Source: a virus
Strand: one strand, 5' to 3'
Virus record (IMG/VR): IMGVR_UViG_3300021131_000034
Span: 1-32,247 of that record
Length of the DNA: 32,247 nt
Under the pieces are notes generated by a model. The model was not told the origin of the DNA and ran no database searches. It saw only the letters and a program-made list of their open reading frames with translations. Every line of letters starts with the position of its first letter. Positions within the stretch are counted from its first letter, which is position 1. Both the position numbers and the translations under genes were made by a program. Shown piece after piece: positions 26,675 to 30,573 of the stretch.

Positions 26675-27961
26675 TTAGCCCATCCATGAAGCCATAGGTT
26701 GGTAAAAGTTCTTCTTTTTAACCGGTTTACGCGGTTCGTTAATCATTAATCCAATATATCTAAATGCGTCAGCACCATGACTGTAGTGGTCATGCAAGGG
26801 AGTCTTTGAAAATTGCTTGGTGTCAGGGTCTACCTCATACCGATAATGTCTCAAGCACTGCAGCCCCTGATGACAATTATCCCGATCAAACCAACAATTA
26901 CCAAATATCGTTCTCGCAGCATTAATGCTATCAACAATTGGCGTTTTGTCAATTATCCTCGTTTTATAACCGCTTGACCTGACTATTTCCTCAATACTTC
27001 GCCCATTACCAGCCAAAGTCTTGTTTTCAGCGTCATGCGGGAGCCACATCGTATCGTAGACATAACCAAAGGTTTGAAGCTCTGCGAGCCAACTGGTGAC
27101 CGTTCGTTGATTACCTTCAATGTATCTAATTAAATGATTTTCACCGCCAATAAACTGTAAAAACCAAATCGCCGTAGCATCGGACCATCCCAAATCCCAC
27201 ACCGTATGCACCGGTTTAGTAGGATCGTAGACCACTTTAGTGATACGCCCATCCAAGTCTGCAACCTGTATTTCTCTGGCAAATATGGCTCCATCCACGG
27301 TTTGCCGACACAAACCTTCCCAAACCGTGTTGTATTGCTCCACGTCTCTAGCGAGTAACGCATCTTTTTCAATGCGTAAGGTATCAGGCAGCCAAGGGTT
27401 ATCCGACCAGTTAATTTTTTGGACAATCGCATTATCGGGAGGATGAAGGACAAACCGCTGGTAAGTTTCGTCTGTTTCTAGCTCAGGGTTAAATGTTATC
27501 CACAGCTCTGATTCTTCTTTACGGATCGTAGGAATCAGCACGTTCCAGGACATTCTTGATACCGTTATGGCTTCCTCAACCCAACAGATATCTATACCTT
27601 CAAAGCTCTTAATATTAGCAATGTTGTTTTTCAGACCGGCAAAGTTAAACTCGGAGCCATTCTTACCGCGTATCGTATTCTGTGTGATTTCATAGAAACC
27701 ATTGAGCCCTAAAGCGTCAATCTGGTCACTCAGGAGCTTGTGTACGGAGTCTTTAATACTGGTTTGGTATTCACGCGCACACAGTATTCGCAGTGGCCTC
27801 TCAGCTGCTTTAATCAATAAAGCCCTAGACACACCCCAAGACTTAGCACCTCCACGCCCACCCCAAAGCACCCGATAGCGTTTTGATGTAGGCTGAAACA
27901 GGCATTCTAATTTTTCAGGAAATTCAGCCTGGCTAATTGCATTGCGAGTTTCACTGTCCAT
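26675..27961 (-). CDS. terL: Terminase large subunit (Terminase_3/PBSX type), 428 aa
   Basis: Packaging motor and nuclease. Walker A GGRGGAKS at residues 34-41, Walker B CWVEEA at 126-131 and the coupling motif ELWITFNPE at 152-160 form the ATPase. The nuclease has Asp256 in VWDLGWSDATA, with Asp261 nearby, and a final acidic residue in DHYSHGADAFRY. It overlaps the small subunit by 11 bases. At 428 aa it is shorter than P22 gp2 (499 aa), pointing to a different terminase lineage joined to a P22-like head. Confidence 0.92.
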   Translation of the reverse strand: MDSETRNAISQAEFPEKLECLFQPTSKRYRVLWGGRGGAKSWGVSRALLIKAAERPLRILCAREYQTSIKDSVHKLLSDQIDALGLNGFYEITQNTIRGKNGSEFNFAGLKNNIANIKSFEGIDICWVEEAITVSRMSWNVLIPTIRKEESELWITFNPELETDETYQRFVLHPPDNAIVQKINWSDNPWLPDTLRIEKDALLARDVEQYNTVWEGLCRQTVDGAIFAREIQVADLDGRITKVVYDPTKPVHTVWDLGWSDATAIWFLQFIGGENHLIRYIEGNQRTVTSWLAELQTFGYVYDTMWLPHDAENKTLAGNGRSIEEIVRSSGYKTRIIDKTPIVDSINAARTIFGNCWFDRDNCHQGLQCLRHYRYEVDPDTKQFSKTPLHDHYSHGADAFRYIGLMINEPRKPVKKKNFYQPMASWMG

Positions 27962-29146: not shown

Positions 29147-29404
29147 TTAGTTTTCAACAACACCACAAATATCCGCTTCATCAATAATCTGATAATCCTG
29201 ACCATCTATCCTATGCGTGGGCCACTTTAAATAATCGCCATTACCATACTTAATAAAATCACCCACCGCGCAATCATCAACTAATGCCCCAATTGCTATA
29301 ATCGTGCCTTCGTTGAATGATTCTGTATTCTTTACAATTAACACTTCCGATAATGTCCTCACTATCGGTTTTACCACTACTTTAGTTCTCAGTGGCTTAA
29401 TCAT
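29147..29404 (-). CDS. GroES-like co-chaperonin, 85 aa
   Basis: The chain follows the GroES fold: IKPLRTKVVVKP (1-13), a polar mobile-loop candidate at ~15-31 containing the hydrophobic patch EVLIV, then GTIIAIGA (33-40), AVGDFIKYGNGDYLK (46-60) and QDYQIIDEADICGVVE at the end, matching the family's closing strand. Bacterial GroES is about 97 aa. The missing residues fall where the roof hairpin would be, as in the T4 co-chaperonin gp31. It probably caps the host GroEL to help fold coat or another large virion protein. Its ATG overlaps the preceding stop. Confidence 0.85.
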   Translation of the reverse strand: MIKPLRTKVVVKPIVRTLSEVLIVKNTESFNEGTIIAIGALVDDCAVGDFIKYGNGDYLKWPTHRIDGQDYQIIDEADICGVVEN

Positions 29405-29631
29405 ACTGCCACCTTACGCGGTCTGCCACGTCTTTTAACCGTTCCTTCGCTTACCGAATTAATCATTTCTAAAGCCACTTCTTCAATTTCCGACCTAATA
29501 GTCTTAAAACAACCACACCAGTCATTGTGATGCTTAGAAACAGACTGAGGAAATCGTCTACAAGTGCCTAAAATGTCGTTTTTAGAAAAATACCGACAAT
29601 TACCACAAATACGTATAATTGAACCAGTCAT
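29401..29631 (-). CDS. Cys-cluster protein with AT-hook-like tail, 76 aa
   Basis: Start chosen at ATG 29631, with GGAG nine bases upstream; a longer frame from 29733 has no ribosome-binding site and would overlap the gene before it. Residues 8-42 hold ICGNCRYF, GTCRRFP and DWCGCF, a zinc-binding arrangement found in small phage proteins. The tail carries RRGRPRK, matching the AT-hook core that inserts in the minor groove of AT-rich DNA. A DNA-binding regulator or virion-associated factor is plausible. Confidence 0.75.
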   Translation of the reverse strand: MTGSIIRICGNCRYFSKNDILGTCRRFPQSVSKHHNDWCGCFKTIRSEIEEVALEMINSVSEGTVKRRGRPRKVAV

Positions 29632-29692
29632 TGCCAAATCTCCAGTTTGGTTGTGATTAGTGCTCGGCAGATGGCGGTCTGCCGTGGCACGA

Positions 29693-30052
29693 CTAGCACT
29701 TATCTTGCGCGTGTTCGTATCGTTGATGGTCATAAACGACTTTTTCGCCCATATGACCTTTCATTTCGCCCAAACGCCCATCATGGTGACCCATGTGGTG
29801 TTCATGACGTAGGCCAATACCATCTTGGTTTCCCATAGCAACACCACCTTCGATCGGCATTTTACGCTCGCCAGTCGTGTCGCTAGACAAAGCAGCGCGA
29901 GGAGCTTTAGCTCCTGTATGTGAAGGATAACCGTCACCTTCTTTGTCTTCCTTGGGAACGCGCACCATCTTTTCGCCAGATGAATCACGCGATTTTACGT
30001 GTTTAGGCATCTTTGCAGACTCGCCGTATCCGTAATGTTTGGCTTCTTTCAT
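29693..30052 (-). CDS. His/Gly-rich hydrophilic protein, 119 aa
   Basis: GGAG precedes ATG. The protein is highly charged without hydrophobic core. It carries KSRDSSGEKMVRVPKEDKEG in the first half and a His-rich stretch (HEHHMGHHDGRLGEMKGHMG) near residues 83-102. Probably intrinsically disordered and metal-binding. It directly follows the Dps-like gene, which may be functionally relevant. The family is not recognised. Confidence 0.7.
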   Translation of the reverse strand: MKEAKHYGYGESAKMPKHVKSRDSSGEKMVRVPKEDKEGDGYPSHTGAKAPRAALSSDTTGERKMPIEGGVAMGNQDGIGLRHEHHMGHHDGRLGEMKGHMGEKVVYDHQRYEHAQDKC

Positions 30053-30061
30053 AGCAGCTCC

Positions 30062-30427
30062 TTAGTTTAAGTATTTCAGTTTATACAACGTATTATTAAT
30101 TAAATCCTGAATTTCATCAATTAAATTTTGTAATTCAGAATCGCCTGGCAACAACGAACGACTCTGGTTGGTAAACTCATTAACCTTTTCCAAATAGTCA
30201 ATAGCATCTGTTGCCACATGATAGTCACCCCCATAATCCGCAATGTTTAATTGACCGTAACGGCCCATATAACACTCGGCAAATTGATCGGTTAACTTGA
30301 TTATATCTTTGTAGTAGTGACGCAAAGTCTTATGGATTGCGTAAGAGCCTGTAGACAAATGCAAAAGATGTGCATTGGTTGAAGAATGCAGGAGGGTTAG
30401 TATAAAAGCAGCGGCGTCTTTTTCCAT
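30062..30427 (-). CDS. Dps/ferritin-like protein (DUF5856-like), 121 aa
   Basis: AGGA lies before ATG. The helical N-terminal half reads AHLLHLSTGSYAIHKTLRHY then LTDQFAECYMGRYG. His20, His32, Asp47 and Glu51 have spacings of 12, 15 and 4 residues, exactly those of the Dps ferroxidase ligands (His51, His63, Asp78, Glu82 in E. coli Dps). A second helical pair fills the C-terminal half. It is shorter than cellular Dps (about 167 aa). It may bind iron, protect DNA, or be a packaged structural helper. It is the first gene of the late operon, directly after the promoter and structured leader. Confidence 0.75.
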   Translation of the reverse strand: MEKDAAAFILTLLHSSTNAHLLHLSTGSYAIHKTLRHYYKDIIKLTDQFAECYMGRYGQLNIADYGGDYHVATDAIDYLEKVNEFTNQSRSLLPGDSELQNLIDEIQDLINNTLYKLKYLN

Positions 30428-30544: not shown

Positions 30545-30573
30545 ATTTTAGGAATTCAAAAGCAATTTGTCAA
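30545..30573 (-). promoter_or_regulatory. Leftward late-operon sigma70-type promoter
   Basis: TTGACA (30573-30568) and TAAAAT (30550-30545) are exactly 17 bp apart. Transcription should begin near 30538, giving a leader of about 110 nt before the first late gene. An inverted repeat, GGAATT at 30551-30556 with AATTCC at 30572-30577, brackets the spacer and could be an operator. A second TTGACA at 30462-30457 has a poor -10 and lies too close to the ATG, so it was not called. Confidence 0.82.

Follow-up and report, generated by a model that had tools for sequence, protein, structure and literature searches.

Bacteria protect their DNA against peroxide damage with Dps, a protein that oxidises iron. 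A small open reading frame (ORF) in the viral DNA studied here (IMG/VR record IMGVR_UViG_3300021131_000034; the whole stretch of 32,247 nucleotides is referred to below as the window) raises the question of whether its product is a phage relative of Dps and, if so, which residues would hold the metal and what the protein would do for the phage. An earlier note on this sequence had described a miniature Dps-like protein in which His20, His32, Asp47 and Glu51 reproduce the exact ligand spacing of the Dps ferroxidase site; it omitted that the ORF lies on the minus strand. The gene runs from 30427 down to 30062 (121 aa, stop codon included in the coordinates), and the plus-strand frame at the same positions is riddled with stops.

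Family membership and genomic setting

The window protein matched the Pfam family DUF5856 (PF19174), whose profile the earlier note had proposed trying, along the entire model (positions 1-94 of 94, E = 3.7e-22, 79.6 bits against a cut-off of 34.6), and it matched PHROG 858 over positions 13-128 of 129 (E = 1e-26). The label of PHROG 858 is 'starvation-inducible transcriptional regulator', a name that RefSeq also carries. By tblastn, the family was found in 1,345 of 50,697 phage records, largely from Straboviridae and Ackermannviridae of enterobacteria. Many of these records are already named starvation (Dps-type) protein, and several genomes annotate the DUF5856 member as a structural protein. 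The jumbo phage PBECO4 also encodes a relative, and the product of the T4 gene rI.-1 (RI.-1, MobD.6) is a member with E = 5e-33. The window protein thus adds a member to a family that is known but uncharacterised and already tied to Dps in databases; the earlier statement that such proteins are poorly understood is true of their function, but not of a family this widespread and so often named Dps-type. Likewise, the protein is indeed shorter than cellular Dps (about 120 against 145-170 aa) but not small for its family, which has a median length of 119 aa: it is an ordinary-sized member of a large family and not a lone miniature.

With the other DUF5856/PHROG 858 proteins, including T4 RI.-1, the window protein shares a score above the curated cut-off, a similar length and the same invariant residues, and the predicted fold is the same in both members modelled. 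His23, His32, Asp47, Glu51 and Asp104 are invariant in a 68-sequence family alignment that includes the window protein, in a family with a mean column identity of 38-40%. The window member differs from the Straboviridae and Ackermannviridae members in sequence (approximately 25-38% identity) and in the location of its gene, which lies in a P22-like head/packaging cluster and not near rI or tk. The PF19174 model begins at His23, so that nearly all of helix A (30359-30424, minus strand), including His20, is excluded and the boundary cuts through the region of the predicted metal site. Two giant-virus proteins, A0A481ZC29 of Pithovirus LCPAC404 (115 aa, 25% identity) and A0A7D3V608 of Fadolivirus (129 aa), have predicted structures that closely match the window-protein model, which suggests that giant viruses encode DUF5856-like proteins as well. 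NCBIfam had no model for the window protein, and a literature search found no paper naming DUF5856; several literature matches to 'starvation-inducible' concerned PhoH, which is unrelated to DUF5856. A Pfam match of the window protein to RVT_3 (E 0.05, below the cut-off) was dropped, and PADLOC gave no match on the window and hence no sign of a defence gene.

The window derives from a P22-like podovirus, in which genes for the portal, scaffold, major head protein, head closure and DNA ejection follow on the minus strand. The gene under study, termed here the mini-Dps gene, is the first of this head/packaging cluster, a position that is conserved in relatives. The features of the locus are as follows:

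30545..30573, minus strand: promoter-like TTGACA-17-TAAAAT upstream of the mini-Dps ORF, 11/12 match (consensus match only)
30062..30427, minus strand: DUF5856/PHROG 858 mini-Dps ORF, 121 aa (PF19174, PHROG 858, AlphaFold pLDDT 96.5)
29693..30052, minus strand: next cluster gene, 119 aa, with a His-rich C-terminus in this phage only
29401..29733, minus strand: Cys-rich 110-aa protein of the same cluster, with relatives near the mini-Dps gene in 69 loci
29147..29404, minus strand: GroES-like protein of the same cluster, 85 aa (Pfam Cpn10, E = 3.4e-5)
26675..27961, minus strand: terminase large subunit, downstream in the same operon-like cluster (Pfam Terminase_3, E = 1e-36)

The promoter-like site is one of 5 found in the scan, against 2.0 expected by chance. 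In IMG/VR relatives, a recurring order was observed: mini-Dps, small proteins, Cys-rich protein, GroES-like protein, terminase and portal, with the GroES-like relative present in 102 loci (within about 1.7 kb downstream of the mini-Dps gene), the large terminase in 78 and the portal in 51. The GroES-like gene, kept in about 100 related contigs, sits between the mini-Dps gene and the terminase. T4-type members of the family are instead found in the rI gene group and not among head genes, and those of the Ackermannviridae are located elsewhere.

Two neighbouring products have features of their own. The 119-aa protein (29693-30052) ends in a His-rich stretch (HEHHMGHHDGRLGEMKGHMGEKVVYDHQRYEH), whereas its relatives are about 63-76 aa long, contain 1-6% His and are without the stretch; a metal-binding addition beside a ferritin-like gene is possible. 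The Cys-rich protein (29401-29733) contains the motifs CGNCRYF...CRRFP...WCGCF and has an AT-hook-like C-terminus.

Relation to Dps

A single-sequence search of the window protein against the PDB found no structure (best E 0.15, unrelated), whereas a profile of 20 diverse family members searched against PDB sequences placed the Dps family protein 2d5k first (E = 2.5e-7), followed by more Dps, and a 68-member profile retrieved 2d5k at E = 4.4e-4. Aligned with hhalign to 10 Dps proteins, the family profile gave E = 2.9e-7 and a probability of 93% over 114 columns; with the 68-member profile, the alignment covered the first two helices (E = 2.2e-5). In the reverse search, a small Dps profile recovered 106 of the 232 members at E up to 10, compared to 2 of 4,640 shuffled sequences. 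The Pfam Ferritin model (PF00210) did not retrieve the window protein at E up to 1, and no single member reached its gathering score (best 18.6 bits against 24.5). In two whole genomes that were reached via bacterial contigs carrying the gene, no Pfam Ferritin match was found, leaving no host Dps for comparison.

AlphaFold modelled the window protein as a four-helix bundle (pLDDT 96.5, pTM 0.89) with helices at residues 2-25, 29-57, 75-90 and 97-119 and a B-C connection of 17 residues that contains a three-residue helical turn at 62-64. The best PDB matches of this model in Foldseek were Dps proteins (probability 1.00, TM normalised to the query of about 0.75, with E-values of only 0.02-0.1). 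VIA-align superimposed it on a Dps with Z 14.0 and rmsd 2.4 over 120 aligned residues, and the top solved structures were Dps and other ferritin-superfamily proteins. For the LIMEstone1 orthologue, the model (pLDDT 94.4) had this fold as well and matched a Dps with Z 14.7. Since helical bundles readily give high structural Z scores, it is the sequence evidence that carries the claim of Dps homology, and the predicted fold agrees with it. Both the Dps relationship and the four-helix bundle put forward in the earlier note were borne out, no other fold being predicted, and profile homology identifies the window protein as a phage-specific relative of Dps.

The resemblance to the Dps mini-ferritins (E. 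coli Dps, Bacillus Dlp-1/Dlp-2, MrgA and H. pylori NapA) comprises the four-helix ferritin fold, predicted here, and a common H/H/D/E ligand set in which the last three residues are spaced 15-4; in addition, the window protein and Bacillus-type Dps both have a further His three residues ahead of the first ligand. In contrast to Dps, the A-B loop is three residues shorter in most DUF5856 members, the B-C region of the window model has only the three-residue helical turn, the N-terminal DNA-binding tail is absent and Leu24 replaces the Dps Trp. A Lys-rich DNA-binding tail is, however, characteristic of the E. coli type and is missing in some accepted Dps proteins. Another shortened ferritin-superfamily bundle, the mini-bacterioferritin 9qq5 of Candidatus Methanoperedens (136 aa), matched the model with a VIA Z of 12.4. 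It is a bacterioferritin by name, with no special sequence similarity to the window protein, and in the bacterioferritin family the metal site is expected within one subunit.

True Dps genes are carried by phages of Streptomyces, Lactobacillus and Campylobacter and by the 'Gratiaviridae', where they have been proposed to limit oxidative damage (PMC8008677, PMC6669764). DUF5856 would share with them a phage-borne Dps chemistry. The true phage Dps proteins are directly similar to cellular Dps, whereas DUF5856 is seen only by profile or fold, and it is nearly ten times commoner in the same collection (1,345 against 141 records).

Metal ligands of the predicted site

In Dps, two His and two acidic ligands are contributed by different subunits. 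The codons of the corresponding candidate residues in the window are:

30368..30370, minus strand: His20, accessory residue in the present reading (93% conserved over 42 clusters; Dps alignment)
30359..30361, minus strand: His23, proposed equivalent of E. coli Dps His51 (99.6% conserved; Dps alignments)
30332..30334, minus strand: His32, equivalent of Dps His63 by alignment (100% conserved; Dps alignments)
30287..30289, minus strand: Asp47, equivalent of Dps Asp78 by alignment (100% conserved; Dps alignments)
30275..30277, minus strand: Glu51, equivalent of Dps Glu82 by alignment (100% conserved; Dps alignments)

The four residues named by the earlier note are present at exactly the 12-15-4 spacing. 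The pattern H-x11-H-x14-D-x3-E occurs once in the window protein, in 0.078% of 200,000 shuffles of it (P ~0.0008) and in none of the window's 133 other stop-to-stop segments that are 60 aa or longer. Because 219 of 232 aligned family members keep the spacing from the His20 column, the alignment marks the pattern as inherited and not as a product of chance. No columns of the family alignment are better conserved than those of the ligands; over the 42 clusters, His32, Asp47 and Glu51 are conserved in 100%, His23 in 99.6% and His20 in 93%, values that could be inflated since the loci were gathered partly with patterns containing ligand residues. The phage members from a plain tblastn search show the same ligand conservation. 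The conservation of ligands foreseen by the earlier note was thus found, but the note had overlooked His23, which is more strictly kept than His20.

The choice between the two His residues turns on the alignments with Dps. In every one of them (HMMER, hhalign and MAFFT), the first ferroxidase His of Dps (His51) pairs with His23, and a three-residue gap is placed in the A-B loop of most family members, which have lost three loop residues and have a His23-His32 distance of 9. Two members with a loop of Dps length, L011 (HLAAEGPGSYAKH) and L222 (HLQCQGVGSFARH), have 12 residues from the His23 column to the next His, as in Dps, and 15 from the His20 column. When five family members were aligned together with three Dps proteins, five columns were invariant, among them H23, H32, D47 and E51. 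By cluster weight, 17% of the family have Trp at position 24 and thereby recreate the 'HW' pair of Dps at 23-24, although the window protein itself has Leu24 where Dps has Trp after the first ligand His. His20 aligns with the extra His three residues before the ligand in Bacillus-type Dps (HNFHW in the aligned chains), and where its column is not His, it is Lys or Arg; Lys occurs in several Straboviridae, including members from Dhakavirus and Kanagawavirus. The residue at which the structural alignments start was rejected as a criterion between His20 and His23, as the ranges give ends only; the window and LIMEstone1 models differ by two residues at the N-terminus.

It is conceivable, but improbable, that His20 and not His23 is the ferroxidase ligand and that the exact 12-15-4 spacing is the ancestral spacing of Dps. 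The number of members with this spacing and its rarity among shuffles favour such a reading, as does a clade of four members (L208, L209, L210 and L212) in which Arg-Trp replaces His23-Leu24 while His20, His32, Asp47 and Glu51 are kept. This clade may fit either the use of His20 as the ligand there or a loss of the site, and constitutes a natural test of which His is needed. The pairing of His51 with His23 in all Dps alignments, the 'HW' pair, the members with a Dps-length loop and the Lys at position 20 in several Straboviridae all argue against His20. The first ferroxidase ligand is therefore probably His23, the assignment to His20 in the earlier note is probably wrong and the exact distance of 12 from His20 is most likely coincidental. 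The predicted ligand set becomes His23, His32, Asp47 and Glu51; the first two would act together with Asp47 and Glu51, which the twofold-related subunit presumably contributes, by analogy with Dps, and His20, one helical turn ahead of His23, would be a probable accessory metal or gating residue.

Virion association of relatives and possible roles

Relatives of the window protein have been detected in particles of two other phage lineages. LIMEstone1 ORF78 was among 39 proteins identified by mass spectrometry, with 3 peptides and 28% coverage (PMC3296691). In CsCl-purified particles of ValerieMcCarty03/04, the members gp108/gp100 gave 26/27 spectra, compared to 1,126/1,158 for the major capsid protein, in a study that detected 153 and 135 proteins with a cut-off of 15 spectra set against contamination (PMC13119998). 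The relatives are apparently low-copy virion components in both lineages, with cytosolic contamination a possible source; they are distant from the window protein (about 25-38% identity) and come from phages other than that of the window. The accessible part of a report on the phi-D3 structural proteome names no DUF5856-type protein. Because the gene setting differs, with the rI group in T4-type phages and other locations in the Ackermannviridae, one role shared by these members and the window member is not assured.

Conservation of the Dps di-iron set, with little else strictly conserved, points to metal chemistry. The explanation that we favour, and place just on the likely side of an even chance, is that of a phage-specific mini-Dps with a di-iron ligand set, made late and associated with the virion, that oxidises Fe(II) and limits Fenton damage. 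We infer late expression, a dimer-shared site, the identity of the metal, the activity, the oligomer and the protective role; the homology, conservation, predicted fold and gene order are those described above, and virion detection of relatives comes from the literature. The protein would be a ferritin-type four-helix bundle in which the A-B and B-C loops are shortened and the N-terminal tail of Dps is missing. Its gene, at the start of the head/packaging cluster, is probably expressed late, and the product is probably particle-associated by analogy with its relatives in the two lineages. It most likely oxidises Fe(II) using H2O2 or O2, which would lower Fenton damage to phage DNA while particles are assembled, inside them or on entry. 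The most likely role appears to be to protect phage DNA from Fenton chemistry, late in infection or in the particle, with about an even chance of being correct.

Alternatively, the protein could serve the structure or assembly of the particle, with a metal site that is structural and not catalytic. This we consider unlikely, even though the head/packaging cluster of the small phages begins with this gene, relatives are found in virions and several genomes carry the structural annotation. Strict conservation is nearly confined to catalytic-type ligands while the rest of the protein varies, a pattern expected of chemistry more than of a fixed assembly contact, and the T4-type gene lies among the rI genes and not the head genes. 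A further possibility is a lysis-timing accessory in the infected cell, acting for example in iron or redox sensing: RI.-1 is a DUF5856 protein and, according to a review (PMC6832632) citing Golec et al. 2010, the collapse of lysis inhibition is slightly delayed when rI.-1 is over-expressed. As described there, the effect is small and stems from over-expression; RaK2 has a DUF5856 relative but no T holin or RI antiholin (PMC3622015), and the P22-like phage of the window has the gene at its packaging cluster, so that we regard a lysis role as quite unlikely. A DNA-binding regulator, as the PHROG 858 and RefSeq name implies, is the least probable of these roles and would be surprising. The name probably derives from Dps similarity, and the label is unlikely to fit because the protein is acidic and without a DNA-binding tail: all 232 aligned members are acidic (median net charge -6, none positive), and the window protein, with a net charge of -6, has no counterpart of the Lys-rich tail at the N-terminus of E. 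coli Dps, helix A starting at residue 2 in the model.

The mini-Dps reading, favoured here for the window protein, could extend to DUF5856 as a phage-specific Dps branch that provides an on-board virion ferroxidase across podoviruses, T4-like and Vi01-like phages, T4 RI.-1 included; we consider this broader proposal possible but rather doubtful. If it is true, packaged or freshly injected DNA would be guarded from Fenton chemistry, and T4 RI.-1, so far only a minor lysis-inhibition accessory, would be such an enzyme. The window protein by itself only adds to a phage family that is very common already; the contribution of the analysis lies in a corrected ligand set and the links to T4 rI.-1 and to the virion proteomics of two lineages. 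The misleading name 'starvation-inducible transcriptional regulator' could be replaced by 'Dps-like (ferritin superfamily) protein', and the unassigned T4 gene rI.-1 would become a candidate for a specific, testable di-iron protein.
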